DNA of 64,000 bases from Ensifer adhaerens (GTDB lineage: Bacteria > Pseudomonadota > Alphaproteobacteria > Rhizobiales > Rhizobiaceae), in the NCBI RefSeq assembly GCF_002940685.1, contig NZ_PNFP01000014.1, forward strand, positions 1-64,000. The letters are read 5' to 3'. Each line of letters begins with the position of its first letter. Within the stretch, counting starts at the first letter, position 1. Position numbers and translations under genes: made by a program. The notes under the pieces were generated by a model. That model saw nothing but the letters and a program-made list of their open reading frames with translations, was not told where the DNA came from and ran no database searches. Below are positions 20,966 through 55,879 of this stretch, one piece after another.

Positions 20966-20974
20966 CGCTTTATA

Positions 20975-28385: not shown

Positions 28386-28546
28386 GGTGACGGCGCTGAT
28401 TCCCACGGAGCGGCCGAACGGCGGATAACGGAAATTTGTTCAATGCGGTGTGCGGGCCAGCGCGATGCCAGGCTGCCAGGAAGATGCTGTGCCTCATTTC
28501 CGCCGAAACCGCCGCGACAAACTCAGCGATAACCTGGAGAAAGCTG

Positions 28547-29485: not shown

Positions 29486-29774
29486 AATCATCCTCGTCAG
29501 CTGATTGGTTGCATTTAGCGGTTCGACCATACCCAGCGCCGGTCCTTACGGCAATCGCGCATGGCGTGTGCCTGGCACCTATCGCGTTGTCGGTCGAAGC
29601 TTTCCTGGCCCGCACGCCCGCGGCTCTTCGTTGCAGCAGCCGAACATCTGGCTCGGCTTCCCAGCCAGCCGCTTCGGTACCCCGATAGTCTGCTTGGTTG
29701 GCGAGAGATACCCCGGGCTTTCTCGAACCGGAGTTTTCGGAATAGAATCGCGAGTGGAACTCGAGGGGAAGTTC

Positions 29775-35561: not shown

Positions 35562-35772
35562 CCGAGCAGATAGGCGAACATCCAGTACTTAACGGCGTTT
35601 GCCAAAACGATCGAACGATGCAGGTTGTCGTCGAGCCGCTTCTTGAACACGCCGCCATCATCAGCCTGTCCGCGTGCGACTTGCTCAATCCTTGCAAAGG
35701 GCCTCGTCCGAGATCCGCGCCTTCCTCGCTGCCTTGGAAAACCACGCCGTTTTTGAAAGTCCGTTCTGACAT
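35562..35772 (-). pseudogene. Relic of the RelE/HigB-type toxin, copy 3
   Basis: From ATG 35772 it starts MSERTFK, then an insertion in the A-run shifts the frame. In other frames KxxWFSKAARKARISDEAL and LDDNLHRSIVLAK are still readable. It is truncated at the join to the small-protein repeat and has no antitoxin gene. Clearly dead. Confidence 0.65.
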
Positions 35773-35883
35773 CGCTTCATAGCGCTGGCGGAGACTGCGC
35801 TGCTTCCCATAAGCCGGAGTCCGCTAGAAGTGGGTCTCCATCGAAACGGGGATCAAAAACCTGTTGCATAGCCGCTGTTTTCC

Positions 35884-35906
35884 TATATCTTATAACTTAT
35901 AAGTTA
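35884..35906. promoter_or_regulatory. GntR-type operator at the transketolase promoter
   Basis: The palindrome TAACTTATAAGTTA (35893-35906) is preceded by TATATCTTAT at 35884. It lies 20-40 bases before the first gene, overlapping -10-like hexamers. TAACTTATAA and TATATCTTAT recur in the divergent gntR/aminotransferase promoter region, which supports control by the GntR at 44089. Confidence 0.65.
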
Positions 35907-35926
35907 CAAGCAGCGGGAGCAGATCC

Positions 35927-36826
35927 TTGTCAATGCGACAGAACCCAGGCGGCCATCTTTCGGTGGCGCGCAGCCATGAACTATTGTCCGGAGAACAGCT
36001 TGCCTTCCTTCAGGAGCGCGCGCGCTTCATCAGGCTCGAGACGCTTCGGTTGATCTCGATCGCCAAGGTGGGCCACTACACCTCGGTCTTTTCCTGTGCG
36101 GAGATCTTTGCAGCGCTCTATTACGATGTGATGCGGCTCCGAAAGGGCGAGCCGGCCTTTGCCGACCGGGACCGCTTCCTGATGGGCAAGGGACATGCGG
36201 CCGTTGGCCTTTTCCCCATTCTCGCTGATCTCGGCTTCTTCGATCCCGCATGGCTTGAAAGCTATACGCGGCTCGGCAGCCCCCTCGGCGATCACCCTGA
36301 TATGACGAAGGTCCCGGGCGTCGATTTCAGCTCCGGGTCTATCGGTCATGCCCTGTCGAACGGCGTCGGCATGCTGCTTGGCGCGCGCTTCCAGCAGCGT
36401 GATTTCAATGCCTTTGTCCTGCTTGGCGACGGGGAAATGCAGGAGGGCCAGGTCTGGGAAGCCGCCTTGTCCGCCGCCTCGCACAATCTCTCCAACCTGA
36501 TCGCCATCGTCGATCGCAACGGCTACCAGCTCGATGGCAAGGTCGACGATGTCATAGCGATAGAACCGCTTGATGAGAAATGGCGCGCCTTCGGCTGGGA
36601 GGTTCACACCGTCGACGGCCATGACCTTGAGGCGCTGACGACGCTGCTGCGCGCCGCAAAGGCCGACCGTGCCCGTACAAAGCCGTGCTGCATCATCGCC
36701 CGCACCGTGAAGGGCAAGGGCATCGACTACATGGAAACCGAACCCGGCTGGCATCTCGGCTATCTCGGTGCGGAAGATGAGGCCAAGGCCCGCGAAACGA
36801 TCCTGAACACGGTAATTTCCCAATGA
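35927..36826 (+). CDS. Transketolase, N-terminal (TPP-binding) subunit
   Basis: 299 residues. TTG 35927 has GGGAG 7 bases upstream; ATG 35933 is an alternative. The TPP motif is LLGDGEMQEGQVWEAALSAASHNLSNLIAIVDRNGYQ (G-D-G...N), and GKGHAAVGLFPILADLGF and SSGSIGHALSNGVGML line the cofactor pocket. It makes the first half of a split transketolase with the next gene (4-base overlap). Split transketolases transfer C2 units in special catabolic pathways. First gene of the long operon running to 44069. Confidence 0.92.
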   Translation: MSMRQNPGGHLSVARSHELLSGEQLAFLQERARFIRLETLRLISIAKVGHYTSVFSCAEIFAALYYDVMRLRKGEPAFADRDRFLMGKGHAAVGLFPILADLGFFDPAWLESYTRLGSPLGDHPDMTKVPGVDFSSGSIGHALSNGVGMLLGARFQQRDFNAFVLLGDGEMQEGQVWEAALSAASHNLSNLIAIVDRNGYQLDGKVDDVIAIEPLDEKWRAFGWEVHTVDGHDLEALTTLLRAAKADRARTKPCCIIARTVKGKGIDYMETEPGWHLGYLGAEDEAKARETILNTVISQ

Positions 36827-37800
36827 CCCAACTGCTTTCCAAGGACTCGTGGCAGTACCGCGAGATCAACCGCCGCGCACCCTCGCTCCCCACGCTGTCG
36901 AATGCGCTCATCGCCCTTGCCGACGCCGGCCATCCCGTCATGGCGGGCACGGCGGACCTGCAATATTCGAACGGCCTTTCCGGTTTCGCCCAGCGCTATC
37001 CGGAGCGCTTCGTGCAGTTCGGCATTTCCGAGCAGAACATGGTCTCGGCCGCCGCCGGCATGGCGACGACAGGCGTCATTCCCTATGTGGCGACCTTCGC
37101 CTCGTTCCTTGCGCTTTTGTGCTGCGAGCAGATCCGCATGGATGTCGCCTATTGCAAGCAGCCGGTCCGCCTGATCGGGCATCACACCGGCATCTCGCTC
37201 GGCTTTTACGGAACGTCCCATCATGCGACCGAAGACATTGCCATCATGCGCAGCATTGCCAACCTTGCGGTTGTCTCGACGGCGGATGGGCCGGCGCTCG
37301 ATGCGGCCCTCAGGGCGACCGTCGACTATCCGCTCCCCATCTATTTCCGCATCCACCGTGGGCACGATCCGGTCGTCTACGAGGACGGCGTCGCATTCGA
37401 ACTCGGCAAGGCGATCGTACACGGCATCGGCAAGGACATCACAATCATCGCAGCGGGTTACCCGGTGCATGGCGCCAAGCGCGCGATGGAGGAACTGAAT
37501 GCCGCAGGCCATTCCGTCGGTCTGATCGACATGCATTCGATCAAGCCGCTCGACGAGGATGCGATCATCGAGGCCTCCGCTCGTTCGAAAATAATCCTGA
37601 CGGTCGAGGAGCACAACATCCTCGGCGGCCTCGGCGGAGCCGTTGCGGAAGTGCTGGCCGAAAAGGGCAGGGGCGCCCGTCTCGTCCGGCACGGCATCCG
37701 CGACGAATACAGCCTGATCGCACCCCCCACCCATCTCTACAGGCACTACCGCCTGGACGGCGACGGCATCCGGGCCGTGGCGCTCGAGAACATTGCGTAA
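36823..37800 (+). CDS. Transketolase, C-terminal subunit
   Basis: 325 residues. ATG 36823 overlaps the previous stop (ATGA). It contains the pyrimidine-binding domain: AGTADLQYSNGL, RFVQFGISEQNMVSAAAGMATTG with the cofactor-activating Glu in SEQNM, and GFYGTSHHATEDIAIMRSI. The C-terminal domain follows with LIDMHSIKPLDEDAIIEAS and VEEHNILGGLGGAVAEVL. Together with 35927 it forms one active transketolase or a DXS-like enzyme; the His of SHHATED supports transketolase. Confidence 0.92.
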   Translation: MTQLLSKDSWQYREINRRAPSLPTLSNALIALADAGHPVMAGTADLQYSNGLSGFAQRYPERFVQFGISEQNMVSAAAGMATTGVIPYVATFASFLALLCCEQIRMDVAYCKQPVRLIGHHTGISLGFYGTSHHATEDIAIMRSIANLAVVSTADGPALDAALRATVDYPLPIYFRIHRGHDPVVYEDGVAFELGKAIVHGIGKDITIIAAGYPVHGAKRAMEELNAAGHSVGLIDMHSIKPLDEDAIIEASARSKIILTVEEHNILGGLGGAVAEVLAEKGRGARLVRHGIRDEYSLIAPPTHLYRHYRLDGDGIRAVALENIA

Positions 37801-37811
37801 GGAGAATGCCG

Positions 37812-39113
37812 ATGTCGACGAACAACGAAACGATCGCCGCGCGCGCGCAAACCGTCATACCCGGCGGCCTGTTGAGTCCCAGCCGACGCCTCGGCGCGCC
37901 GATCGCCTTCGCCAGGGCCGAGGGAGCCTATCTCTATGATGCCGATGGCAACCGCTACACCGATTATCACTGCGCCTTCGGGGCCAATGTGCTCGGCCAT
38001 CGTCCGCCCGCCGTCGCTGCCGCGATTGCCAAGACGGCCGAAAACCTCGACCTGATCGGGGCCGGCGTGCTGGAGCTGGAGGTCGAGGTGGCCGAACTGC
38101 TCGTGAACGCGATCCCCTGCGCCGACCAGGTGGCGTTTTGCAGCAGCGGCTCGGAGGCAACCTACCATGCCCTGCGTCTCGCCCGGGCCTACACCGGGCG
38201 CAAGCAGATCATCAAGTTCCAGGGCGGCTACCATGGCTGGCATGATTACGTCGCCATGAACGGTCAGTCGAGCCGCCAGATGATCGGCTCCTACGATCCG
38301 ATGTCCGACGGCATGCTGTTTGATGCCGCCCGCCACACCGCCATCCTGCCCTATAACGATGCCGGTGCCGTCGAGGACTACATCCGCCAGAACCCCGGCG
38401 AGGTTGCGGCGATCATCGTCGAGCCGATCGCGCACAATATGGGCGCGGTCATTGCCGAGAAGCAGTTCCTGTCCGACCTGCGCCGGATCACCACCGAGCA
38501 CGGTGTCGTCCTCATCTTTGACGAGGTGATCACCGGTTTCCGGCACGCGCTCGGCGGCTACCAGTCGATCGTCGGCGTCACGCCCGATCTTTCGACCTTC
38601 GGCAAGGCCGCCACGAGCGGTTATCCGATCGGCATCGTCGCCGGCCGGCGCGAGATCATGGAGCGGGTTGGCCGGACGGGCGAGGGCGCCGTCTTCATGG
38701 GCGGCACGTTCAACGGCACGCCGTCCTCGATGGCGGCCGTCAAGGCGACGATCGAGGAACTGGCCAGGCCGGGGGTCTACGAGCGGCTGTTTGAACTTGG
38801 CGCGTATCTGCGCGGCGAGATAGACGGCATCATCGCGCGGCACGGCCTGAAGGCGCAGGCCGCCGGTTTCGGTTCGGTCTGGCTCGTCTACTTCTTCGAC
38901 GGCGCGTTCCGCGACTACTCCGACCTCCTGCGCAACGACAACGATCTGGACATGCGCTTCCGGCGGGCCCTGATCGCCGGCCGGCAGGTCTTCCAGCCGC
39001 TCCAGCTCAAACGCCTCTACCTCTCGCTGAGTCACGATCGCGCCGTCCTTAACGACACGCTCGAGCTCATCGACACGACCATGGCCGGCCTCGCGCGTTC
39101 GGTCGCGGCCTGA
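37812..39113 (+). CDS. Class-III aminotransferase, glutamate-1-semialdehyde-aminomutase-like
   Basis: 433 residues. ATG 37812 has AAGGAG 7 bases upstream; ATG 37806 sits on the ribosome site, and the much longer open frame before it is a shadow of the transketolase genes. The GSA-like start IPGGLLSPSRRLGAPIAFARAEGAYLYDADGNRY and the PLP sites SSGSEATYHALRLARA, LIFDEVITGFRHA and the Lys of DLSTFGKAATSGYPIG (about 270) are intact. It differs from HemL in context, lying in an uptake operon, so transamination or mutase action on an amine substrate is inferred. Confidence 0.9.
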   Translation: MSTNNETIAARAQTVIPGGLLSPSRRLGAPIAFARAEGAYLYDADGNRYTDYHCAFGANVLGHRPPAVAAAIAKTAENLDLIGAGVLELEVEVAELLVNAIPCADQVAFCSSGSEATYHALRLARAYTGRKQIIKFQGGYHGWHDYVAMNGQSSRQMIGSYDPMSDGMLFDAARHTAILPYNDAGAVEDYIRQNPGEVAAIIVEPIAHNMGAVIAEKQFLSDLRRITTEHGVVLIFDEVITGFRHALGGYQSIVGVTPDLSTFGKAATSGYPIGIVAGRREIMERVGRTGEGAVFMGGTFNGTPSSMAAVKATIEELARPGVYERLFELGAYLRGEIDGIIARHGLKAQAAGFGSVWLVYFFDGAFRDYSDLLRNDNDLDMRFRRALIAGRQVFQPLQLKRLYLSLSHDRAVLNDTLELIDTTMAGLARSVAA

Positions 39114-39150
39114 TCTTTCAAACCTGCTCTCAAAGATAAAAGGGGAACCC

Positions 39151-40179
39151 ATGAGAACTCGGTTTTTTGCGATGATGGCGAGTGCTGCACTCGTCGTCGC
39201 ATCTCCAGCGCTGTCCCGCGACCTGACCGTCGTCGGCTTCGGTGGCGCGACGCAGGAGGCGATGCGGCAAACGCTCTTCGAGCCTTACCGGAACAAGGTC
39301 GGCACGCCGCTTCTGGAGGAATCCTATACGGGTGGCATTGCCAAGGTGAAGGCCATGGTCGAGACCGGCACGACGACCTGGGATGTCGTGCAGATGGACG
39401 AAAACGAGATGATCCTGGCCTGCGACCAGGGTCTGCTGGAGCCTTTCGATTGGGCCAGTCTGCCGAACAGCGCCGAGATCATCGCGGCGGCCAAGTCCGA
39501 TTGCGGCGTCGGCGCCTTCGTCTGGTCGAAGATCCTCGCCTATGACGGCGACAAGACGAGCGGTGTCACGTCCTGGGCGGATTTCTGGAACCTCGAGAAA
39601 TGGCCGGGAAAGCGCGGCCTGCGCAAACAGGCGCGCATGACGCTCGAAGTCGCCCTGCTCGCCGACGGCGTAAAGCCGGAGGAGCTTTACGCCGTCCTGG
39701 CGACGAAGGAAGGACAGGACCGCGCCTTTGCCAAGCTCGACGAGATCAAGCCGAGCATTCAGTGGTGGGAGAGTGGCGCGCAGCCGATGGAATGGCTGGC
39801 CTCCGGCGAGGTGACGATGACCTCGGCCTATAACGGGCGCGTCATCGCCGCAAACCAGCAGGGACGGCATTTCACGATGTCCTGGACCAACCAGCTCTAT
39901 GCAATGGACTTCTGGGCCATCCCGAAGGGCGGCAACAGGGACCAGGCGTTCGACATCGTCAACTTCATGACGAGCCCCGACCCGCAGAAGGCCTTTGCCG
40001 AGAAGATGGTCTACGGCGTGACCAATGCCAAGGCGATGGACAGCATCTCCGCCGACATCAAGCCGCAGCTTCCGACCGCCGAGGAAAACATGGCGGGCGC
40101 GCTTGCCGTCAGCACGCCGTTCTGGGTGGATCACGAAGAAGAACTTCAGCAGCGCTTCAACCGCTGGGTCGCACAATAA
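39151..40179 (+). CDS. ABC transporter substrate-binding protein 1 (PotD/AEP-like)
   Basis: 342 residues, AAGGGG ribosome site. Residues 1-23 are a Sec signal (RFFAMMASAALVVASPALS). The mature part starts DLTVVGFGGATQEAMRQTLFEPY, as in the extracellular solute-binding family 1 that serves spermidine/putrescine and 2-aminoethylphosphonate. KVKAMVETGTTTWDVVQMDEN and TDxxN-like loops fit. Its neighbour at 40191 is a paralogue with the same order of motifs. Two receptors for one permease pair imply a broad or two-ligand uptake system. Confidence 0.9.
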   Translation: MRTRFFAMMASAALVVASPALSRDLTVVGFGGATQEAMRQTLFEPYRNKVGTPLLEESYTGGIAKVKAMVETGTTTWDVVQMDENEMILACDQGLLEPFDWASLPNSAEIIAAAKSDCGVGAFVWSKILAYDGDKTSGVTSWADFWNLEKWPGKRGLRKQARMTLEVALLADGVKPEELYAVLATKEGQDRAFAKLDEIKPSIQWWESGAQPMEWLASGEVTMTSAYNGRVIAANQQGRHFTMSWTNQLYAMDFWAIPKGGNRDQAFDIVNFMTSPDPQKAFAEKMVYGVTNAKAMDSISADIKPQLPTAEENMAGALAVSTPFWVDHEEELQQRFNRWVAQ

Positions 40180-40190
40180 GGGAGGATGTC

Positions 40191-41237
40191 ATGACCTATC
40201 GTGGGTTTTTCGGCGGACTGGGCTTGCTCGCCGCCCTGGCGGGTGCACCCGCCGCTTTTGCCGATGCCGGCAAATTGACTGTCGTCGGTGCCGGCGGCGT
40301 CCTGCAGGATGCCGAGCGCAAGGCCTTCTTCGAGCCCTTCGCGGCGTCGTCCGGCGTGGCGCTTACGGAAGATTCCTATTCCGGGCAGATGGCCAAGGTG
40401 CGCGCCATGGTCGACAGCGGCAGCGTCTCCTGGGACGTCATGCAGGTGGAGCAGAACACGCTTCTATCCGGTTGCGCCGAGGGGCTTTTCGAGGAGCTTG
40501 ACTGGAGCAGGATCGGCAAACGGGAGGACTTCATTCCCGAAGCCTATAGCGATTGCGGCGTCGGCGCCTTCGTCTGGTCGATGGTGGCGAGCTACGACAA
40601 GGTGAAACTGGTGGATGGGCCGAAGAACTGGGCAGACCTTTGGAATGTCGAGAAATGGCCCGGCAAGCGCGGGTTTCGCCAGACGGCGAAGATGACGCTC
40701 GAAATCGCCCTCCTTGCCGACGGCGTTGCCAAGGACAAGGTCTATGAGGTGCTTGCCACGGACGAGGGCCAGGATCGCGCTTTCGCCAAGCTCGACGAGA
40801 TCAAGCCGTCGATCCTCTGGTGGGCGACCGGCGCGGAATCCGTCGAGCGTCTTGCCGCCGGCGACGTCGTCGCCACGGCGACCTTCAACGGCCGCGTCGC
40901 GGCGGCCAATGCCTCCGGCAAGGACTTCGCCCTCCTCTGGGACGGTCAGGTCTTCGGCATCGACTACTGGGGCATCGTGAAGGGCTCGCCCAATCGGGAG
41001 AATGCGGAGAAGTTCGTCGCCTTCGCCTCGACCGAGAGTGCCCAGGCAGCGTTCCCGCAGCACATCGCCTATGGCGTCACCAATCTTGCCGCCATTCGCG
41101 GCGTCAAGCCGGAAATCGCGAAGGATCTTCCGACGACCGAGGCGAACATGGCCACGGCGGTGGCGCTCAACACCGAGTTCTGGGCCGACCACGGCGAGGC
41201 GCTCGAGGCGAGATTTGCGACATGGCGCGCGCAATGA
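40191..41237 (+). CDS. ABC transporter substrate-binding protein 2, tandem paralogue
   Basis: 348 residues; GGGAGG precedes ATG. Signal LGLLAALAGAPAAFA. It parallels 39151 closely: LTVVGAGGVLQDAERKAFFEPF, KVRAMVDSGSVSWDVMQVEQN, VGAFVWSMVASYD, NVEKWPGKRGFRQTAKMTLE, IKPSILWWATGAESVE. Many ligand-side residues are shared (WWxTGAxxxExLAxG), so both probably bind related amines or acids. Gene duplication within an operon is the simplest origin. It overlaps the permease start by 4 bases. Confidence 0.9.
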   Translation: MTYRGFFGGLGLLAALAGAPAAFADAGKLTVVGAGGVLQDAERKAFFEPFAASSGVALTEDSYSGQMAKVRAMVDSGSVSWDVMQVEQNTLLSGCAEGLFEELDWSRIGKREDFIPEAYSDCGVGAFVWSMVASYDKVKLVDGPKNWADLWNVEKWPGKRGFRQTAKMTLEIALLADGVAKDKVYEVLATDEGQDRAFAKLDEIKPSILWWATGAESVERLAAGDVVATATFNGRVAAANASGKDFALLWDGQVFGIDYWGIVKGSPNRENAEKFVAFASTESAQAAFPQHIAYGVTNLAAIRGVKPEIAKDLPTTEANMATAVALNTEFWADHGEALEARFATWRAQ

Positions 41238-42508
41238 CGTCGGCTGTTTTCACGGGGCCGCGCATTGGCGCGGTCGACGGCCAGCAGGGGCGGGTGTCCG
41301 CCCTTGCCACCGGCTTTCGCGCCGACAGGCGGCGGCAGACGATCGGCAGCCTCTTCCTGATCGGGCCTCTCGTCGCCTTCATCGTCTTCGCCTTCGTGCT
41401 GCCGCTCGGCACGATGCTGTTCCATGCCATCAACAATCCCGAGGTCCGCAATGCCTTTCCAATGACGCTCGCCTCGCTGGAGGATTGGGACGGGACGGGC
41501 ACGCCGCCCGATGCGGCCTTCGACGCGCTGGCTGCTGACATCCGCGCGAGCGCCGATCCGAAGACCATGGCGGAGGCTGGTCGCCGGCTGAATTACGAGA
41601 TCACCGGATTCCGGAGCCTTCTTGCAAAAACGGTCCGAACGGTCCGCGCGGCGCCGGAGAAATCCGCCAGGATCCAGTTGCTCGCCATCGATGGGAACTG
41701 GGACAACCCTGCCTATTGGCGGGTCATCCAGCGCAATGGCGCACCGCTGACAGCCTTCTACCTGCTCTCGGCCGTCGACCTGCGCCCCGGGGAGAACGGC
41801 GGCGTGCAGATGGCACCGCGGGAGGAGCGGCTTTTCCTGTCGACGCTGATGCGGACTTTGACGATCAGTGCGTTGGTCACGGTGATCTGCCTCTTCGTCG
41901 CCTATCCGATCGCCAATGCCATCGTCGCCATCGGCGGTCGATTCTCGGCGATCATGCTGGCCTGCGTGCTTCTGCCCTTCTGGACGTCGCTCCTGGTGCG
42001 GACAAGCGCCTGGATCGTCATCCTGCAGAAGGAAGGCGTGGTGAACCGCCTGCTTCAGGCGCTGAACATCACGAACGCGCCGCTCGAGCTCGTCTTCAAC
42101 CGGACCGGCCTCTACATCGCGATGGTGCATATCCTGCTGCCATTCATGGTGTTGCCGCTAGTCAGCGTCATGAAGGGCATCTCGCCGTCTTATGTCAAAG
42201 CCTCCGCTTCGCTCGGCGCCGGACCCGTCACGACGTTTCTTCGGGTCTATTTGCCGCTCACGCTGCCGGGTGTCGGCGCGGGATGCCTTCTCACCTTCAT
42301 CATCTCCGCCGGCTACTACGTCACGCCCACGCTCGTCGGCGGTGCATCGGACCAGATGCTGAGCTACTTCGTGGCTTTCTATGCCAACACGACGATCAAC
42401 TGGGGCATGTCCGCCGCGCTCGGCGTCCTGCTTCTGACCTGTATCCTCGCGCTCTACGGGATTGTCGGGCGGATCGTCGGCATCGGCCGCATCGTTGGAA
42501 TGGAGTGA
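41234..42508 (+). CDS. ABC permease, PotB-like, with a large periplasmic insert
   Basis: 424 residues from ATG 41234 (ATGA overlap with the previous gene). TM1 (FLIGPLVAFIVFAFVLPLGTM) is followed by about 140 periplasmic residues (SLEDWDGTGTPPDAAF, then NPAYWRVIQRNG). The usual PotB block with five more helices comes after that, with the EAA loop YVKASASLGAGPVTTFLRVYLPLTLPG. The insert is absent from E. coli PotB and makes it about 120 residues longer, but similar ones occur in rhizobial relatives. It pairs with 42512 and the ATPase at 47788. Confidence 0.88.
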   Translation: MTSAVFTGPRIGAVDGQQGRVSALATGFRADRRRQTIGSLFLIGPLVAFIVFAFVLPLGTMLFHAINNPEVRNAFPMTLASLEDWDGTGTPPDAAFDALAADIRASADPKTMAEAGRRLNYEITGFRSLLAKTVRTVRAAPEKSARIQLLAIDGNWDNPAYWRVIQRNGAPLTAFYLLSAVDLRPGENGGVQMAPREERLFLSTLMRTLTISALVTVICLFVAYPIANAIVAIGGRFSAIMLACVLLPFWTSLLVRTSAWIVILQKEGVVNRLLQALNITNAPLELVFNRTGLYIAMVHILLPFMVLPLVSVMKGISPSYVKASASLGAGPVTTFLRVYLPLTLPGVGAGCLLTFIISAGYYVTPTLVGGASDQMLSYFVAFYANTTINWGMSAALGVLLLTCILALYGIVGRIVGIGRIVGME

Positions 42509-42511
42509 CAG

Positions 42512-43315
42512 ATGCCTGTTGCCTTGAGACGCGCACAGATCGCCTTCTGCTGCCTCGCGATGATCTTCCTGATCGGGCCGACGATTGTGATCATCCCGAT
42601 CTCCTTCAGTTCGGCCAACTTCCTGTCCTATCCGCTGCCCGGCTTTTCCCTGCAATGGTACGAGAAGATCCTGCAGCCGCAGCCCTGGATGTCGGCTCTT
42701 CTCAACAGCCTGCTCATCGGCGTCGGCGCGACGCTGGTGTCCACGGTGCTGGGCACGCTGGCAGCACTCGGCATGTCGCGCGGCCGGCTGCCGGCGCGCT
42801 CGATGATCCTGGCAGTGGTGATTTCGCCGATGATCGTGCCCGTCGTCATCAGCGGCGTCGGCATGTATTTCTTCTTCGCCAAGCTGGGTCTCGTCGCTTC
42901 CTTCCTGGGTCTCGTTCTTGCCCACGCGGTTCTGGCGGTGCCCTTCGTGCTGATCACGGTCACGGCCACACTGAAGAACTTCGACATCAATCTCGTTCGA
43001 GCAGCGGCAAGCCTCGGCGCCAGTCCGTTCCATGCCTTCCGTACGGTGACGCTGCCCCTCATCGCGCCGGGCGTCATCTCGGGCGCGCTCTTCGCTTTCG
43101 TCTTTTCGTTCGACGAGGTCGTCGTCGCGCTCTTCATCAGCGGGCCGGGCCAGCGCACTCTGCCGCGCCAGATGTTCGATGGTCTTCGGGACAATATAGA
43201 TCCGTCGATCCTGGCGATGTCGACATTGCTCGTGATCATCTCCATCGTCCTGATGGGGGGTGGGGCCTTGGCCCAGAAGCGTGCCGCCACAAACCGTTCG
43301 ACTGCCAATGTATAG
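42512..43315 (+). CDS. ABC permease, PotC-like
   Basis: 267 residues, six membrane helices of the standard PotC layout: FCCLAMIFLIGPTIVIIPISF, then VLGTLAALGMSRGRLPARS, and the EAA loop NLVRAAASLGASPFHAFRTVTLPLIAPGVISGAL. FSFDEVVVALFISGPGQRTLPRQMFDGLRDNIDP is typical of spermidine/putrescine importers. It is translationally close to the previous permease (3-base gap) and completes the membrane part of the importer. Confidence 0.92.
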   Translation: MPVALRRAQIAFCCLAMIFLIGPTIVIIPISFSSANFLSYPLPGFSLQWYEKILQPQPWMSALLNSLLIGVGATLVSTVLGTLAALGMSRGRLPARSMILAVVISPMIVPVVISGVGMYFFFAKLGLVASFLGLVLAHAVLAVPFVLITVTATLKNFDINLVRAAASLGASPFHAFRTVTLPLIAPGVISGALFAFVFSFDEVVVALFISGPGQRTLPRQMFDGLRDNIDPSILAMSTLLVIISIVLMGGGALAQKRAATNRSTANV

Positions 43316-43325
43316 AGGTGAAGGA

Positions 43326-44069
43326 ATGATCATCGTAACAGGTGCCACGCACGGGATAGGGCGGGCGTGCGTGGAGAAGCTTGCAGCGGCCGGTGCCCGG
43401 GTGGTGGCGACGGGTCGGGATGCGGAGGCGGGCAGGGCGCTCGAGGAGATTGGTCCCGGCGTCACCTTCCTGCCCGGCGATGTCAGCCGCGAAGAGGATT
43501 GCCGGCGCGTCATCGACAGTGCGCTCGACCTTGGCGGGGGCCAGCTTTCGGGCCTCGTCAACAATGCCGGCATGTCGAAGCGCATTTCCTTCGCTTCCGC
43601 TACGCAGGGCGATTGGGACGAGGTGCTGGCGGTCAATGCTCGCAGCACGTTCCTTTTCATCCGCCACGCGCTGGAAGGCCTGCGGCGCGGCAGGGGATCA
43701 GTCGTCAACATCGCCAGCATCGCCGGAAAGACCGGCGAGGAGGGGCTGGCCGTTTACTGCGCCTCGAAGGCTGCCGTCATCGGCCTCACCCAGGCGCTGG
43801 CGCTGGAGTTCGGCGACGAGGTGCGCTTCAATGCCGTCTGCCCCGGCCAGATCGAAACGCGCATGATGGACAAGATCATGAGTGATGCCTTGCGCAAGAA
43901 GCAGCTCGAACTGCGCATTCCCGCCAATCGCTTCGGGGCCCCGCAGGAAGTGGCGGATGTCGTCGCCTGGCTGCTGTCGGATCAGTCGACCTATGTCAAC
44001 GGCACGGTTGTGACCGTGGATGGCGGGGAGACTGCCGGCCTGCGCACCCCGCGCATCGTGCAGGTCTAG
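43326..44069 (+). CDS. Short-chain dehydrogenase/reductase
   Basis: 247 residues from ATG 43326. Canonical motifs are all there: IIVTGATHGIGRACVEKL (T-G-x-x-x-G-I-G), NNAGMSK, SVVNIASIAGK, the catalytic YCASKAAVIGL and PG-x-I-E-T-R after it. NAD(P)-dependent oxidation of a hydroxyl or reduction of a ketone from the pathway is expected. It is the last gene of the operon; the convergent gntR stop lies 19 bases on, with a hairpin between. Confidence 0.92.
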   Translation: MIIVTGATHGIGRACVEKLAAAGARVVATGRDAEAGRALEEIGPGVTFLPGDVSREEDCRRVIDSALDLGGGQLSGLVNNAGMSKRISFASATQGDWDEVLAVNARSTFLFIRHALEGLRRGRGSVVNIASIAGKTGEEGLAVYCASKAAVIGLTQALALEFGDEVRFNAVCPGQIETRMMDKIMSDALRKKQLELRIPANRFGAPQEVADVVAWLLSDQSTYVNGTVVTVDGGETAGLRTPRIVQV

Positions 44070-44077
44070 GACCTCTC

Positions 44078-44101
44078 CGGCGCCGAATTCACTCGGCGCC
44101 G
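44078..44101. terminator. Hairpin between convergent SDR and gntR
   Basis: CGGCGCCGA-6 bases-TCGGCGCCG, a perfect 9-base stem covering the end of gntR. It probably ends both convergent transcripts, although a T-run is missing. Confidence 0.45.
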
Positions 44102-44766
44102 CGTTCCTCGAAATAACGCAGGAAACTGGGCGAGGCCCGCTGGATGTCGTTCTCGATGGCCTGGCGGGCCTTCTGCTTGTCGCCGACCCTCAGGGCCTCG
44201 ATGAGATGGTTGTGCTCCTCCGCGCCGGTATAGCCGTGCGGAATTTCCCGGTAGTAGACGTTGAGTATCGGCCCCATCGACACCCACATGCTCTCGATCT
44301 GGCCGACCAGCATCGGCATGCGCGACAGCCGGTAGACACCGAAGTGGAAGGCACGATTGGAGGAGCGCGCCTCCTCCAGATTGCCGGCCTTTTCATTTTT
44401 CACGAAGGCGGCGTGGAAGCTTTCGAGCTGCGTCAGATCGGCGGCGGTCACATGGTCGGTGGCGTGCTCTGCAGCCAGCCCTTCGAGCGCTATGCGGATG
44501 AGCTTGATCTGGATGTAGCGGGCGCGGCTGAGGTCAGGCACCGTGACGAAGCGGCCGGAGCGCAGTTCGAGCGCCTGCTCGCTGACGAGCCGCAGGCAGG
44601 CTTCGCGCACCGGCGTGACACTGGTCCCGAGCTGTTCTGCAAGATCCTGCATCAGGAGGCGGTCGCCCGGCGCGAAGTTACCGACGATGAGGCCTTCCCG
44701 CACCTTGTTGTATATCCGGGCGGACAGGCTGCCGGCTTCGCCGGGCTGCATCTCCATAACGCTCAT
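44089..44766 (-). CDS. GntR-family regulator, FCD subgroup
   Basis: 225 residues. ATG 44766 has AGGAG 7 bases upstream; the track start at 44781 lies on the ribosome site. The HTH is SLSARIYNKVREGLIVGNFAPGDRLLMQDLAEQLGTSVTPVREACLRL, and the C-terminal FCD domain (residues 75-220) has RSSNRAFHFGVYRL and EEHNHLIEALRVGD, where the Asp/His metal-binding set is plausible. FCD regulators sense carboxylic acids and repress catabolic operons. It lies between two operons whose promoters share its probable motifs. Confidence 0.9.
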   Translation of the reverse strand: MSVMEMQPGEAGSLSARIYNKVREGLIVGNFAPGDRLLMQDLAEQLGTSVTPVREACLRLVSEQALELRSGRFVTVPDLSRARYIQIKLIRIALEGLAAEHATDHVTAADLTQLESFHAAFVKNEKAGNLEEARSSNRAFHFGVYRLSRMPMLVGQIESMWVSMGPILNVYYREIPHGYTGAEEHNHLIEALRVGDKQKARQAIENDIQRASPSFLRYFEERGAE

Positions 44767-44826
44767 GGGAATTCTCCTCATCTTTGATGCAGCTCTAGCT
44801 GAAAATGCCCCGAGCCGCCAATCGCT

Positions 44827-44926
44827 TATATCTTATCGCTCGCCGCGGCGGCGTGACGTCGCAAAAAGTTTCTCGCCTCCGGCGAAATTCACTTGCATGC
44901 GTTTGCTGATAACTTATAACTTATAA
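44827..44926. promoter_or_regulatory. Divergent promoter region with GntR motif repeats
   Basis: TATATCTTAT at 44827-44836 lies 60 bases before gntR. TAACTTATAACTTATAA at 44910-44926 lies about 30 bases before the aminotransferase and is framed by GTTTGCT (44901) and AGCAAAC (44930), an inverted repeat. The same motifs stand at 35884-35906. Autoregulation plus control of the downstream operon is inferred. Confidence 0.6.
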
Positions 44927-44954
44927 AATAGCAAACACGGTTTCGGAGGCTACC

Positions 44955-46319
44955 TTGCACAATTCGCTGCGGGCGCGCGACATGGCGTACCACTTCCATT
45001 CACAGACCAACCCGCGCAGGCTCGAGGCCGAGGGCCCCCTGGTGATCACGGCAGGGGAGGGTTGCTACGTCATCGACGAGATGGGAAATCGCTATCTCGA
45101 GGGCATGGGAGGCCTCTGGTGCGCCTCGCTCGGCTTTCGCAACGAGCGCCTTGCCGACGTTGCGGCAAGCCAGATGCGCAGGCTTGCCACCTACCACACC
45201 TTCAATCACCGCTCGAATGACCCGACGGTGGATGTCGTCGAGCAGATCGCGACGCTTTCCCCCATCCCAGGGAGCAAGGTCTTCCTCGTGAATTCCGGCT
45301 CGGAAGCCAACGACACGATGATCAAGCTTGCCTGGTACTACAATGTCGCGCGCGGCAAGCCCGGCAAGCGCAAGATCATCAGTCGTAGGGGCGCCTTTCA
45401 CGGCAGCACCGTCATGGGGGCGGCCCTCGGCGGTCTGCCGCACATGCATGAGAGCTTCAACATGCCCGGCCTCAACGTGATCTATACGGACAAGCCGCAC
45501 TACTACCGCAACGCCCTGCCGGATGAGAGCGAGGAGGCCTATTGCGCCAGGCTGATTGCCGCGCTGGAGGCCCTGATCGAGGCGGAAGGGCCGGAAACCA
45601 TCGCCGCGATGATCGCCGAGCCGATCATGGGGGCGGGCGGCGTCGTCACGCCGCCGGCGGGATACTTCCCGGCGCTGCGACAGCTTCTGACGAAGCATGA
45701 CATCCTGCTTCTTTCGGACGAGGTCGTCTCCGGTTTCGGGCGAACCGGAAAGTGGTTCGGGTCCGAGGCGCTCGGCTTCGTTCCGGACATGATGTCGGTC
45801 GCAAAGGGCCTGTCCTCAGGCTACCTGCCCATCGCCGCGGCGGTGATCGGCGATCATGTCTACCAGGCCATTGCCGACGAGGCCGACCGTATCGGCGTCT
45901 TCGGCCATGGCTTCACCTATTCCGGCCATCCGGTCACCGCTGCGGTGGCGGCCGATGTGCTGCGCATCTACCAGGAAATGGATGCGCCGGGCCGAGCCGC
46001 CGAACTTGGCCGCCATCTCTTCGCCGCGCTCGACGCGCGCATTGCGGGCCATGCCCTTGTCGGCGAGGTCAGGGGAACCGGCTTCCTTGCCGGCATCGAG
46101 CTGGTGGCCGACAAGCCGCGCCGTGCGCCCTTCGATCCCGCTCTGAAGGTCGGCACTCTGGTCGAACAGCGCTGCCGGGCGCATGGCGTCATGATCCGCA
46201 ACATGGGCGACGTCATTTCCATATGCCCGCCCTTCGTCATGACGCCCGAGGAAGTCGACCAGCTTGTCGACGGCATAGCGGCGGCGCTTGACGATGTTGC
46301 CGACCGACTTGCAGCGTGA
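44955..46319 (+). CDS. Class-III omega-aminotransferase (putrescine/beta-alanine:pyruvate type)
   Basis: 454 residues. TTG 44955 has GGAGG 5 bases upstream. The PLP sites are seen in VNSGSEANDTMIKLAWYYN, ISRRGAFHGSTVMG, LLLSDEVVSGFGRTGKWFGSE and the Lys of MSVAKGLSSGYLPIAA (about 285). GHGFTYSGHPVTAAVA follows. It is close to SpuC-type polyamine:pyruvate aminotransferases and omega-amino acid:pyruvate enzymes, which turn a terminal primary amine into an aldehyde. First gene of the operon whose promoter carries the GntR motif. Confidence 0.92.
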   Translation: MHNSLRARDMAYHFHSQTNPRRLEAEGPLVITAGEGCYVIDEMGNRYLEGMGGLWCASLGFRNERLADVAASQMRRLATYHTFNHRSNDPTVDVVEQIATLSPIPGSKVFLVNSGSEANDTMIKLAWYYNVARGKPGKRKIISRRGAFHGSTVMGAALGGLPHMHESFNMPGLNVIYTDKPHYYRNALPDESEEAYCARLIAALEALIEAEGPETIAAMIAEPIMGAGGVVTPPAGYFPALRQLLTKHDILLLSDEVVSGFGRTGKWFGSEALGFVPDMMSVAKGLSSGYLPIAAAVIGDHVYQAIADEADRIGVFGHGFTYSGHPVTAAVAADVLRIYQEMDAPGRAAELGRHLFAALDARIAGHALVGEVRGTGFLAGIELVADKPRRAPFDPALKVGTLVEQRCRAHGVMIRNMGDVISICPPFVMTPEEVDQLVDGIAAALDDVADRLAA

Positions 46320-46329
46320 GGGCGTGACG

Positions 46330-47766
46330 ATGGACGATTTTGTAAATCTGGACCTCACCGCGCAGGCGGATCTTGTGAAGTCGGGGCAGGCCACCGCCGG
46401 GGAGCTGGTCGAGGCGGCCATCCGGCGTGCCGAAAAGGTGAACCCCGCGATCAACGCGATCATCGCGCCACTCTATGACGAAGGGCGCGCGGAAGCGGCG
46501 CAGGCGGCCACGGACAGCCTTTTCGCCGGGGCCCCGTTCCTGGTGAAGGACCTTTACTGCCACATGAGCGGTGTGCCCACCACCGGTGCCTCCCGGCTGA
46601 CCCGGAGCTTCGTGCCCGCCCGAGACAGCGAGTTGATGCGCCGCTATCGCGCGGCCGGCCTCAGCACGTTCGGCAAGACCAACCTGTGTGAATTCGGAAC
46701 GCTTGGCACCACCGAGCCGAAGCTGTTCGGCCCGACGCGCAATCCCTGGAACGTCGGGCGGTCAAGTGGCGGTTCGAGCGGCGGCGCCGGCGCGGCGGTG
46801 GCGGCGGGCATCGTGCCGGCGGCGCATGGCGGTGACGGGGCAGGCTCGATCCGCATTCCCGCATCCTGCTGTGGCGTGTTCGGGCTGAAACCCTCCCGCG
46901 GACGTATCACGCTGGGGCCGGATCTCGGCGACAGCACGGGCGGGATCGTGAACGAACATGTCCTGTCCCGCAGCGTGCGCGACAGCGCCGCCCTCCTCGA
47001 CGCGACACAGGGTTCCATGCCCGGCGATCCCTACGCAGCACCTCCCCCTTCGGGTCGCTATGCCGATGCGATCCGGACGAAGCCGCGCCGCCTGCGCATC
47101 GGCTTCACGACGGCCTCGCTGCTCGGCACTGCGGTCGATCCCGACTGTGTGGCGGCGACGACCGACGCGGCGCGCCTATGCGAAAGTCTCGGCCACGAGG
47201 TCGTGGAATGCGCGCCGTCGATCGACGGGCAAACCTACCGCACCCTCTACAAGCGCTTCTGGGCGATGACGGCGACACGGGCGATCACCGCGCTCGCGCG
47301 AAGCCGCGGCGAGGACGCGTCTTTGCTCGTGGCCGAGGTGGAGAGCTTCAATCAGTATCTCTACGGCGTCGGTTCGCGGATCTCGGCGGCGGACTATCTC
47401 GTCGATCTCAACTGGTTCCACACGACCGGCAGAACGCTGGCGAATTTCCTGCTCGACGTCGATGTCTGGCTGACCCCGACGCTCAGCACGCCGCCGCCGG
47501 AACTGGGCCACTTCGATGCCGACCGGCATGGCGGAGAGGCGGTCATGGAACGCTTCCTGGAATTTCTCGCCTTTACGACCTTTGCCAACATGGCTGGCTT
47601 GCCGGCAATGAGCATGCCGCTCTACTGGACAGCCGGCGGCCTGCCTGTCGGCACGCAGTTCACCGGCCGGTTCGACGACGAGGCGACATTGCTTCAGCTG
47701 GCGGCGCAACTGGAAGAAGCGCGACCCTGGGCGCAGCGCCGACCCGCGGTCCACGCGGCTGAATGA
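46330..47766 (+). CDS. Amidase-signature family hydrolase, paralogue of 29775
   Basis: 478 residues from ATG 46330 with GAGGG upstream; the ATG at 46288 lies inside the previous gene. Lys in [10 protein letters not shown], the Ser pair in [16 protein letters not shown] and [23 protein letters not shown] are intact. It shares blocks such as [11 protein letters not shown] and [29 protein letters not shown] with the amidase at 29775. It probably removes an acyl or amide group from the imported compound, before or after transamination. Confidence 0.9.
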
Positions 47767-47787
47767 CAGATAAAAAGGGGAACCAAA

Positions 47788-48870
47788 ATGTCATCCTCCA
47801 ACTACGTCGAATTCCTCAACATCGACAAGAGCTACGACGGCCACAGCCTTGTGGTCGACGATCTCAACCTCACCATCGCGAAGGGTGAGTTCCTGACCAT
47901 GCTTGGGCCATCCGGCTCTGGAAAGACGACGAGCCTGATGATGCTCGCGGGCTTCGAGGCGCCAAGCTCCGGCAGTATCCGGATCGACGGACGATCGCTG
48001 GAAGCCATGCCGCCACACCGAAGAAACATAGGCATGGTGTTTCAGAACTATGCGCTCTTTCCCCATCTGACGGTCGCTGAAAACCTGGACTACCCATTGC
48101 GGGTGCGTAAGATCGCCAGGCAGGAGCGGACCGCCCGCGTTCGAAGGGCGCTGGAAATGGTCCAGATGGGGGCGATGGGCGGGAGGAAGCCCGGGCAACT
48201 GTCAGGCGGGCAGCAGCAGCGCATCGCGCTTGCCCGCGCAATCATCTTTGAGCCGGATGTGGTGTTGATGGACGAACCGCTCGGCGCCCTCGACAAGAAC
48301 CTGCGTGAACATCTCCAGCTCGAGATCAAGCATCTCCACGAGCGCCTCGGCATAACCGTCGTCTATGTCACGCACGACCAGTCCGAGGCGCTGACCATGT
48401 CCGACCGCGTCGCCGTGTTCAACGCCGGCAAGATCGAGCAGCTTGCGCCGCCGAGCGAACTCTATGAGCGCCCCTCCACGGCCTTCGTCGCCGGCTTCAT
48501 CGGAGAAAACAACCGGTTCGTGGGCGAGATCGTCGGCGGTAGCGGGGGCGAATACGGCGTACGCACAGCAGACGGCCAGGTCATCAACGTCTCCAGCAGC
48601 GCGGCCTTCGCCAAGGGCCAGTCCGTCATCGTGTCCCTGCGCCCGGAGCGCCTCTATCTTGAGCAGGCCGCCGCCTGCAGCAATCGCTTCTCCGGGACCG
48701 TCGCCGAGGTCATCTATCTCGGGGATCATCGCCGGGTCCATGTCCGTTTCGGAGACAATGCGACGCTCGTCGCCAAAATTCCCAATGCGGGCACGGGCGT
48801 GGATGTCACACCCTCGCAGGCCATTTCGCTCGGCTGGAACAGCCGCGATGCCGTACTGATCCCGGCCTGA
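47788..48870 (+). CDS. ABC transporter ATP-binding protein, PotA-like
   Basis: 360 residues, AAGGGG ribosome site. Walker A is GPSGSGKTTS (about 40), signature QLSGGQQQRIALARA, Walker B VVLMDEPLGALD and the switch His in VTHDQSEALT. The C-terminal TOBE/OB region (ENNRFVGEIVG, SLRPERLYLE) identifies the polyamine/iron-type import ATPases. It belongs to the receptors and permeases at 39151-43315, although it is encoded in the second operon. Confidence 0.93.
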   Translation: MSSSNYVEFLNIDKSYDGHSLVVDDLNLTIAKGEFLTMLGPSGSGKTTSLMMLAGFEAPSSGSIRIDGRSLEAMPPHRRNIGMVFQNYALFPHLTVAENLDYPLRVRKIARQERTARVRRALEMVQMGAMGGRKPGQLSGGQQQRIALARAIIFEPDVVLMDEPLGALDKNLREHLQLEIKHLHERLGITVVYVTHDQSEALTMSDRVAVFNAGKIEQLAPPSELYERPSTAFVAGFIGENNRFVGEIVGGSGGEYGVRTADGQVINVSSSAAFAKGQSVIVSLRPERLYLEQAAACSNRFSGTVAEVIYLGDHRRVHVRFGDNATLVAKIPNAGTGVDVTPSQAISLGWNSRDAVLIPA

Positions 48871-48871
48871 C

Positions 48872-49900
48872 ATGAAGGCGGTCTATTCCGGCCTGCATCG
48901 GTTGCACAATCCCGGCTCCGTCGTCGAAGGGGGCGTTGCCCGGCGGAGCCGGGACGTGCCCGATCGTCTCGACGCGTTGTTGCGGGCGGCGCGGCATGCC
49001 GGGTTCGAGATTGTCGATGCCGTCGATCACGGGATGGCGCCGCTCGCTGCCGTCCATACGGGTCGTTATCTCAGCTTTCTCTCGTCCGCGGGATGCGGAG
49101 ACGCGTGTTCCGGGTGGCTCGCGCCGGCTGTCTTCGAAAACCGTCCCGAAATGTACAGACCGGATTGGTCGCTGATTGCCAAGGCGGGTTACCATCTACG
49201 CGACCAACTGACGCCGCTCGGCGAGGGGACATGGCAGGCCGCCTATTGGGCCGCACAGGCGGCACTGACCGCAGCGTCGCTTATCAGCGCAGGAGAGCGG
49301 ATCACCTATGCCTTGTGCCGGCCGTCGGGTCACCATGCCGGACGGGATTTCGGCGGCGGTGCGACCTATCTGAACAATGCTGCGATAGCGGCGAGAGCGC
49401 TTTCAGCCACACTCGGGCGGATAAGCCTCATCGATATCGATGTGCATCACGGCAACGGGACACAGGACATATTCTGGGAGGATCCGCTCGTCTTCTTCGC
49501 CTCCCTGCACAGGGGCCCAACAGACTACTATCCGCACCTCACCGGCTTTTCCGACGAGACGGGAGGACGATCGGCCCCGGGCCTCAATCTCAACCATCCG
49601 GTTCCGGCAGGAACAGGCGACGCGGCTTATATCGCAGCGTTCAGCACGTGCCTTGAAGCGGCACTTTCCCATGGGCCAGAGGTTCTGGTCATCTCCCTCG
49701 GCTTCGACGCGCTGGCAAGCGACCCGGCGCGAGGCCTCCAGCTGACCGTCGAGGCCTTCAGGAAGATCGGGGAAATGCTTGGGGGGCTCAATCTGCCGGT
49801 GCTGCTGATCCAGGAGGGCGGATACGATCTGATGAGCCTCGAAAAAGCTGCGACAACGTTCCTGCTCGCCCTTGCGCCGTCGCCGAATGATCCACATTAA
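48872..49900 (+). CDS. Histone-deacetylase-family amidohydrolase (acetylpolyamine deacetylase-like)
   Basis: 342 residues, 1 base after the ATPase stop. The arginase/deacetylase zinc site is complete: RPSGHHAGRDFGGGATYLNN (His pair), LIDIDVHHGNGTQDIF (Asp and His ligands) and ISLGFDALASDPARG (second Asp). IQEGGYDL supplies the Gly-rich catalytic loop. Bacterial members remove acetyl groups from acetylpolyamines or acetoin-linked proteins. In an operon with a PotABCD-like importer and omega-aminotransferase, deacetylation of an N-acylated amine is the best guess. Confidence 0.9.
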   Translation: MKAVYSGLHRLHNPGSVVEGGVARRSRDVPDRLDALLRAARHAGFEIVDAVDHGMAPLAAVHTGRYLSFLSSAGCGDACSGWLAPAVFENRPEMYRPDWSLIAKAGYHLRDQLTPLGEGTWQAAYWAAQAALTAASLISAGERITYALCRPSGHHAGRDFGGGATYLNNAAIAARALSATLGRISLIDIDVHHGNGTQDIFWEDPLVFFASLHRGPTDYYPHLTGFSDETGGRSAPGLNLNHPVPAGTGDAAYIAAFSTCLEAALSHGPEVLVISLGFDALASDPARGLQLTVEAFRKIGEMLGGLNLPVLLIQEGGYDLMSLEKAATTFLLALAPSPNDPH

Positions 49901-50177
49901 ACCGACGGACTTTCAGTGAGGCAGCTTCGATCGGATGTATGCCGCCGGTATCGGTGTCATCGTTCGATCAGCACTAGAAACAATCACCCGGTCCGGCGGT
50001 AAGAGCGCGGGATCGCAGAAATGATGGCGGATGCCTATCAGCACGGGTTCGTGCGTGAGGTTGTTACGCATTGTCGAAATTGGCCAGGTGACGCATGGCT
50101 AGGCTAATTGCTGTCGCGGCGAACAAGATCAAGCACGAGCCGAGACCTGGCAAACGGGGTTGCAAAGGACGAGCGCA

Positions 50178-54309: not shown

Positions 54310-54312
54310 TGC

Positions 54313-55878: not shown

Positions 55879-55879
55879 C

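Follow-up and report, generated by a model that had tools for sequence, protein, structure and literature searches.

Several parts of the system described here have close counterparts that are already known from elsewhere. The receptors for 4-aminobutyrate (GABA) and the mannityl opines (Atu4243, Pf622/iGABASnFR2, MotA and AgtB) have a common fold and a pocket Arg/Asp pair, and class-III aminotransferases include glutamate-1-semialdehyde aminomutase (GSAM) as well as enzymes of caprolactam and 6-aminohexanoate breakdown. Among transketolases, the substitutions R358I/H461S/R520Q engineered into Escherichia coli TktA make it more active on 5-ketogluconate, and a transketolase together with succinate-semialdehyde dehydrogenase (SSADH) makes up a proposed, unproven tartrate route whose cleavage step is called enigmatic (PMC12016104; this and the other papers given by accession are cited from excerpts). 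The sulfo-transketolase pathway for sulfoquinovose likewise uses a transketolase for the catabolism of a non-standard ketose (PMC11659671). Here we examine a stretch of 64,000 nucleotides of Ensifer adhaerens (contig NZ_PNFP01000014.1, positions 1–64,000, hereafter the window), in which thirteen genes at 35,927–49,900 join an importer, two aminotransferases and a split transketolase in one cassette.

The thirteen genes form two plus-strand operons flanking a single minus-strand gntR gene (Table 1). Operon 1 runs from the N- and C-terminal transketolase subunits (TKN, TKC) through a GSAM/HemL-like aminotransferase (AT1), the receptors SBP1 and SBP2 and two permeases to a short-chain dehydrogenase/reductase (SDR); operon 2 comprises a second aminotransferase (AT2), an amidase, the importer ATPase and a deacylase of the histone deacetylase (HDAC) fold. 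Families were assigned by Pfam and NCBIfam profile searches of the window's proteins. This agrees with an earlier note on the window, which had named the split transketolase, two class-III aminotransferases, SDR, amidase and HDAC-fold enzyme (all present in the order and place given, with family matches), two operons around one GntR gene, and a complete importer divided between them. The importer is indeed complete: operon 1 encodes both receptors and both permeases, and operon 2 the ATPase. The note had also called the combination undescribed, and no description of it was found in the open-licence full-text literature. Each family is known individually; what appears to be new is that a locus for import and catabolism in the style of opines or amino acids is joined to a transketolase trunk of its own.

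We propose, at about even odds (probability roughly 0.5), that the cassette imports a hydroxylated zwitterion and transaminates it to a non-phosphorylated ketol acid, from which transketolase splits off a two-carbon unit. The importer would take up a hydroxylated, amino-acid-like zwitterion with a free amine and a carboxylate, or a mixture with its N-acyl, amide or lactam derivatives; where required, nitrogen would be released by the amidase and the HDAC-fold enzyme. AT2 plus AT1 (a class-IV enzyme in relatives) and the SDR would then yield a non-phosphorylated 2-oxo-3-hydroxy (ketol) acid, whose two-carbon end the split transketolase would transfer to a sugar-phosphate acceptor. The short semialdehyde that remains would be oxidised by a GabD-like SSADH, encoded in the operon of some relatives and elsewhere in this bacterium's own genome. 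The gene set, its borders and mobility, the shared operator, the receptor branch and the transketolase and AT1 residues are seen in the DNA; we infer the substrate class, the order of the steps and the reaction directions. The logic of the earlier note, transamination followed by two-carbon transfer in one co-regulated unit with an importer, appears likely on this evidence.

To place the cassette among its relatives we used 88 loci around TKC relatives, the best 80 of 207 from a genome-contig scan plus 8 plasmid loci chosen from the matches (individual loci carry L numbers below), and kept all of them in the tree and in the counts. A locus counts here as amine-type if AT2 (≥50% identity) or AT1 (≥60%) has a match close by (31 loci, against 57 others). 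The genome loci end about 10 kb from the transketolase, so that gene counts are lower bounds and gene absences are weak evidence.

The ThDP (thiamine diphosphate) domains of canonical transketolase are present in the split enzyme by Pfam, and the histidines align that we take to be catalytic. Among solved structures, TKC is most closely related to the Carboxydothermus split transketolase. When TKC is aligned to the genome's own canonical transketolase, E. coli R358 corresponds to Leu22, in a register that rests on few columns and with a three-residue gap directly after the Leu, and D469 corresponds to Tyr129, with H461 and R520 retained; the E. coli residue numbers, D469 included, are those presumed for this alignment. 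An alignment with human transketolase presumably indicates the same Leu. Leu22, Tyr129 and the H461 and R520 counterparts occur in 89 of 89 sequences, with no difference between amine-type and other loci, and the canonical phosphate-site Arg is thus Leu throughout. Altogether 15 of the 17 TKC positions checked are invariant across the 89 sequences (positions 20 and 196 vary).

In a quick tree of the 89 concatenated TKN/TKC pairs, which has several long branches, the amine-type label requires five changes, and at least three of these changes are forced by well-supported branches. The supported set that takes in the window's group numbers 26 rows, of which 15 are amine-type and 11 other (the non-amine rows mostly Rhizobiales), and the amine-type rows from Azospirillum and Pseudomonas fall outside it. 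Amine and non-amine rows form no separate clades. Because of this mixing and the 15 invariant positions, the cleavage step that the amine modules supply seems to be a shared one; the pattern suggests that cleavage is common to the family, to which such modules were added, or from which they disappeared, on several occasions. The likeness to the 5-keto-D-gluconate to tartrate route lies in the altered phosphate site and in the SSADH and L-idonate 5-dehydrogenase-like genes of some relatives, whereas the enzyme in the excerpted account of that route is an engineered E. coli TktA and the cassette enzyme is natural, split, keeps H461 and R520 and is joined to aminotransferases and an amine importer (PMC12016104). 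Unlike the sulfo-transketolase pathway, as far as the excerpted source describes it, the cassette has amine modules, and no sulfonate genes were recognised in it (PMC11659671). Nothing on a parallel with an apiose/apulose transketolase was found in the open-licence literature.

The two operons appear to answer to one regulator. A common core is found in ATATCTTATAACTTATAAGTTA before the transketolase and in GATAACTTATAACTTATAA before AT2, and, for the weaker site on the gntR side, CTTATATCTTAT recurs in all five orthologous intergenic stretches displayed (L033, L034, L035, L042 and L043). With at most one mismatch, ATAACTTATAA has seven matches in the window, solely at 35885–35907 and 44909–44926, where shuffles lead one to expect 0.03, and the 14-mer CTTATAACTTATAA, at the same tolerance, has five matches in the whole 7.5-Mb genome, all within these two promoters; a control pattern had zero matches in the same genome. 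The promoter motifs that the earlier note had seen as common to both operons are real and, within this genome, unique to these two promoters. In 26 of the 31 amine-type loci, against 0 of the 57 others, the 220 bases upstream of the transketolase contain the operator core, in a test that counts sequences, not independent events, with a pattern derived from the window's own sites. Its background was 4 in 1760 shuffles, which preserve single-base content only, and 24 in 4400 random stretches of the same loci. It is also found in Azospirillum, there before the receptor gene too, and in Pseudomonas. The regulator has the GntR helix-turn-helix (HTH) and FCD domain of FadR-type proteins, is predicted to bind DNA and adjoins a conserved operator-like site. 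On these sites, a single co-regulated unit formed by the two operons is well supported, and regulator and operator probably travelled together with the pathway.

The receptors give the best indication of what is imported. GABA in iGABASnFR2 is contacted by W9, T13, F100, Y102, W202, R205, D228 and Y264, and an Asp–amine bond to GABA is described for the Pf622-type receptor (excerpts of PMC12999171). The SBP1 counterparts by alignment are, in order, F30, T34, F123, W125, Y227, R230, D253 and Y288. Among 26 cassette-family receptors R230, D253, Y288 and W125 are invariant and F123 is Phe in 25; the remaining positions vary (T34 is conserved in 10 and replaced by Leu in the other 16, F30 is Phe in 15 with Ala in the remaining 11, and Y227 alternates between Tyr, 15, and Phe, 11), so that the W9, Y102 and W202 positions of iGABASnFR2 hold F/A, W and Y/F in the cassette receptors. 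Both SBP1 and SBP2 carry the pocket Arg and Asp of GABA/mannityl-opine receptors, and the Arg would read a carboxylate. In a Foldseek comparison of the predicted SBP1 structure (mean pLDDT 89.7; 50 matches listed) the best matches are MotA with glucopinic acid, glucopine, DFG and mannopine, in the same range as GABA receptors (E 7e-33 to 2e-29), a group that includes Atu4243-GABA (3e-32), AgtB-agropinic acid (in the top 25), SAR11 PotD-GABA (8jv1) and iGABASnFR2-GABA; among the matches listed, the spermidine, putrescine and agmatine complexes (PotD, SpuD, PotF) rank lower, at E 5e-20 to 4e-17. Against the PotD profile, which has its cut-off at 582 bits, the receptors score 49.8 and 31.6. The importer's ATPase and permeases are of Pot type, with TIGR01187 above its cut-off and the PotH, PotB and PotC profiles scoring best, yet below their equivalog cut-offs.

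By alignment and model, then, the receptors appear to fall in the GABA/mannityl-opine branch and not in the polyamine branch, and since they do so with a pocket Arg and Asp, the imported substrate is probably zwitterionic. The polyamine import that the earlier note had envisaged is not supported: among the matches listed, GABA and opine complexes rank above polyamine receptors, and we rejected it on receptor branch and pocket residues. An amino sugar or an Amadori-type compound, which the note gave as other choices, may still apply. The cassette differs from the GABA/opine systems in having two tandem receptors and importer genes spread over two operons; the SBP1/SBP2 pair is retained in close relatives and in Azospirillum, with a single receptor above the thresholds in the three Pseudomonas loci.

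The same matches bear on a rather unlikely alternative, in which the substrate is a sugar–amino acid conjugate (Amadori or mannityl-opine-like), gripped by the receptor at its amino-acid part, trimmed by the amidase and deacylase and cut by the transketolase at its sugar end. The MotA–opine complexes at the top of the Foldseek ranking and the place of AgtB-agropinic acid speak for it, set against a GABA receptor, Atu4243, that scores about equally well. Two metagenome contigs, L081 (5343–8947) and L120 (1034–4282), also have a SoxA/SoxB-like pair adjoining transketolase and AT1, an arrangement that we take to resemble opine oxidase loci, with operator cores before the transketolase and no AT2 detected within their (lower-bound) gene counts; among the thirteen cassette genes, however, profile searches recognised neither a SoxA/SoxB-like gene nor a conjugate-splitting enzyme. 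To our knowledge, a 1-amino-ketose is not a usual transketolase donor, which counts against a conjugate as well.

Comparison of the 31 amine-type loci separates a core from optional modules. AT2 is found in 29 of them, GntR (at 50%) in 26, the SDR in 24 and AT1 in 16; a class-IV aminotransferase (AT4) occurs in 7, never jointly with AT1 (0/31), and AT1 and AT4 look like mutual replacements. SBP1 (14), the PotA-type ATPase (13), the amidase (11) and the HDAC-fold enzyme (4) are less widespread, and these last two counts argue against the earlier view of acylation as a core property of the substrate. An SSADH at 50% identity is present in 4 loci including L034 (3 if half of the query must align), with relatives at 39–41% in seven more (L044–L047 and L049–L051). 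The conserved trunk consists of aminotransferase, SDR and transketolase. Because some relatives carry SoxA/SoxB-like or hydantoinase-type genes, nitrogen seems to be liberated in several ways and acyl removal to be optional: the closely related Mesorhizobium loci L036 and L061 have hydantoinase-type genes (the hydantoinase gene 96% identical) and a sugar-type ABC importer nearby, and L081 has in addition an amino-acid ABC importer and a gene of the dihydrodipicolinate synthase (DHDPS) family, with a 78% relative of that receptor region in L120. In the 57 non-amine loci (L037, L038 and L039 among them) we found shikimate-dehydrogenase-like genes (43), GldA-like genes (40), SSADH at 50% (16) and IdnD-like genes (11); these loci may serve other polyols, and the transketolase that they share with the cassette may work there in a pathway for polyols or aldonates. 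5-Ketogluconate as the substrate of all relatives was reduced to one candidate, given that IdnD-like genes occur in just those 11 loci.

That 57 of 88 loci have the transketolase without these aminotransferases, together with GABA-like receptors, might indicate two unrelated functions under one regulator, namely uptake and transamination of a GABA-like omega-amino acid or amide and a separate sugar-acid transketolase route. This seems to us improbable: in amine-type loci as far apart as those of Rhizobiaceae, Azospirillum and Pseudomonas the transketolase remains grouped with aminotransferases and SDR, mostly with one operator, and AT1 directly adjoins TKC in all seven plasmid records with AT1 at ≥60%.

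Some of the relatives hold further genes. At 13133–15059 of L044, next to the transketolase cluster, lie OtnK/OtnC-like genes (PF07005/PF17042, Aldolase_II) and a further gene for a HemL-like aminotransferase; this aminotransferase is found again in L045, L046 and L049, as is a second GntR gene. A 401-aa frame of L044 (4830–6035) had no Pfam or NCBIfam match at the set limits, may be an antisense frame and was not used.

AT1 reaches 382.5 bits against the GSAM subfamily profile (cut-off 398). It shares with GSAM the family, the PLP lysine and the N-terminal pocket Ser and Arg (Ser24 and Arg27, retained in 17/17), and differs in operon context and in the C-terminal Glu, which is Lys402 in 17/17; the Ser and Arg presumably belong to the GSAM carboxylate pocket. 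Because Ser24 and Arg27 are kept and Glu has become Lys402, AT1 may be a transaminase for an amino acid with its carboxylate some carbons away; a true aminomutase was set aside on the Glu to Lys change and the score below cut-off. AT2 is closest to 5ghf in the PDB, with 6g4b, which we take to be the Pseudomonas jessenii caprolactam aminotransferase, among the next matches, and the closest solved structure to the amidase is 6-aminohexanoate cyclic-dimer hydrolase (3a2p). This is the likeness to caprolactam and 6-aminohexanoate breakdown, in which we know of no role for a transketolase, an SDR or a second aminotransferase.

The HDAC-fold deacylase aligns with acetylpolyamine aminohydrolase (ApAH; 3men) at the HH, DxH, D and Y that we assume to be catalytic, and is predicted to belong to this family. 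With this closest match, importer parts matching PotA/B/C profiles and putrescine/polyamine aminotransferases among the relatives of AT2, one could read the locus as N-acetylated polyamine catabolism by import, ApAH-like deacetylation, omega-transamination and oxidation. We consider this very unlikely in view of the receptor branch with its Arg in the NGR motif and the HDAC-fold gene in only 4 of the 31 amine-type loci; nor do we know of a place for transketolase, SDR and a second aminotransferase in a polyamine pathway. A role in biosynthesis, in which the cassette would build and then export or modify an amino polyol, with aminotransferase, SDR and transketolase conceivably running in reverse, is hardly credible beside a complete receptor-dependent importer, deacylases and a local GntR/FCD regulator, when profile searches of the thirteen genes recognised neither an exporter nor an assembly enzyme.

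Several observations weigh against our proposal of a zwitterion that is imported, transaminated and cleaved. H461 and R520, two of the three positions engineered in TktA, are unaltered here, and the scheme does not explain why there are two aminotransferases. The window's operons contain no SSADH, and the closest one elsewhere in this genome is 62% identical to the SSADH of L034; five of the 31 amine-type loci have no operator core before the transketolase, and eight have neither AT1 nor AT4 at ≥60%. The receptor argument draws on alignment and one model, the highest TM-score of which (0.86–0.87) is to 4i1d, with no ligand in its title. For PA4985 of P. aeruginosa, from the same Pfam family, the constants are 0.58 for GABA and 160 for spermidine, in a unit that we take as micromolar (excerpts of PMC11113362). 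Lastly, 5-ketohexonate is not an evident common substrate, because IdnD-like genes are so much rarer in the non-amine loci than shikimate-dehydrogenase-like and GldA-like genes.

The boldest candidate for the substrate is a 5-amino-5-deoxyhexonate, or its lactam or N-acyl form, which would suit receptor, AT1, transketolase and SSADH. It would fit the receptor because it is a hydroxylated 5-aminovalerate, and 5-aminovalerate itself is bound by P. aeruginosa AgtB, a member of this Pfam family (excerpts of PMC11113362). It too leaves the two aminotransferases without explanation. Extended to the whole family, this would mean a trunk built on a carboxylate-reading transketolase that cleaves non-phosphorylated ketol acids directly and is supplied by interchangeable modules, polyol/aldonate dehydrogenases at some loci and amine modules at others, of which the window's version would degrade 5-amino-5-deoxyhexonates or iminosugar acids, lactams and N-acyl forms to a 5-ketohexonate and on to a tartaric-type semialdehyde, an idea that we put forward as speculative and unlikely as it stands. 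On that reading iminosugar-type compounds would be broken down in plant-associated bacteria; no example of such a route in them was found in the open-licence literature. If the proposal of zwitterion import and cleavage is true, soil and root bacteria pass on among themselves, on plasmids, a kit for using an amino-acid-like nutrient, and a natural transketolase family cuts non-phosphorylated acids, the step called enigmatic in tartrate formation in the excerpted source (PMC12016104). The tight regulon, with one regulator, two promoters and purifiable receptors, makes the substrate easy to search for.

The cassette has sharp borders. Shinella plasmid pShin-02 is 91.0% identical in nucleotides across window positions 35854–49864 (about 14.0 kb), with no similarity outside them in the 8 kb of flank compared on each side; because the similarity stops on both sides, the borders drawn in the earlier note (35884–49900) lie close to the real ends. 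The G+C content in 2-kb windows is 0.626–0.663 inside 36001–50000 and 0.550–0.634 in the flanks. Plasmids of Sinorhizobium meliloti Rm41 (a laboratory strain, with the cassette on a 1.56-Mb plasmid record), a second S. meliloti, two Agrobacterium tumefaciens and Pararhizobium gei hold 87–88% of the cassette at 75–77% identity, and plasmid records holding ≥80% number six in all. One A. tumefaciens plasmid, pAspH13-3a, has an SSADH gene between ATPase and deacylase. Gene order is identical in Ensifer sp. Root278, Mesorhizobium soli and Rhizobium mesosinicum (L041–L043) through the amidase, where the retrieved stretch stops. No second place with SBP1 at >55% identity was found among 199 genomes of the family (own included), and AT1 at E up to 1e-110 was found in the own genome alone among 385 genomes of the class. 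Judged by these comparisons, the gene block is a horizontally mobile cassette, rare among the genomes searched.

Table 1. Genes and operator-like sites of the cassette, in window coordinates.
Feature	Position	Strand	Matches and remarks
Operator-like site before TKN	35885..35910		ATATCTTATAACTTATAAGTTACAAG
TKN, transketolase N-terminal subunit	35927..36826	+	Transketolase_N 2.3e-40; relatives at 88/88 collected loci; start TTG 35927 after GGGAG, alternatively GTG 35963 (annotated length of Shinella orthologue)
TKC, transketolase C-terminal subunit	36823..37800	+	Transket_pyr 1.2e-36, Transketolase_C 1.1e-24; closest solved: split transketolase 6yaj
AT1, GSAM/HemL-like class-III aminotransferase	37806..39113 (start 37806 or 37812)	+	Aminotran_3 5.1e-65; GSAM structures top PDB matches
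SBP1, receptor	39151..40179	+	SBP_bac_8 5.8e-40; GABA/opine branch
SBP2, receptor, tandem paralogue of SBP1	40191..41237	+	51% identity to SBP1
Permease, PotB-like	41234..42508	+	BPD_transp_1 3.4e-6; PotH/PotB profiles 145/139 bits, below cut-offs
Permease, PotC-like	42512..43315	+	BPD_transp_1 9.2e-15; PotC profile 174 bits, below cut-off
SDR dehydrogenase	43326..44069	+	adh_short_C2 1.1e-61
GntR-family regulator with FCD domain	44089..44781 (start 44781 or 44766)	-	GntR 1.5e-13, FCD 7e-20
Weaker operator-like site, gntR side of shared intergenic stretch	44825..44838		CTTATATCTTATCG
Operator-like site before AT2	44906..44926		CTGATAACTTATAACTTATAA
AT2, omega-type class-III aminotransferase	44955..46319	+	Aminotran_3 5.7e-90; PRK06105 subfamily 628 bits (cut-off 517)
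Amidase-signature amidase	46330..47766 (start approximate)	+	Amidase 3.2e-97; closest solved 3a2p, 4.9e-95
ABC transporter ATPase, PotA subfamily	47788..48870	+	TIGR01187 385 bits (cut-off 355.6)
HDAC-fold deacylase, ApAH-like	48872..49900	+	Hist_deacetyl 3.9e-66; 3men 5e-75

The neighbourhood of the cassette holds a few further features. A RelE/HTH toxin-antitoxin-type pair lies at 20292–20980, with partial copies at 28253–28316 and, left of the cassette border, at 35563–35760; near two of these three places is a 300-nt repeat, 85% identical between 19588–19887 and 35240–35539. A second amidase adjoins an intradiol-dioxygenase-like gene (29505–31265 and 28436–29125) and has the same top NCBIfam match as the cassette amidase, both below cut-off. 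Directly after the cassette, an APH-family phosphotransferase gene (50160–51083) scores far below the curated cut-offs of the listed aminoglycoside and capreomycin enzymes. Farther to the right, 53602–56368 holds three minus-strand genes, two without a Pfam match at E 1e-5 and one with a phage tail collar domain.

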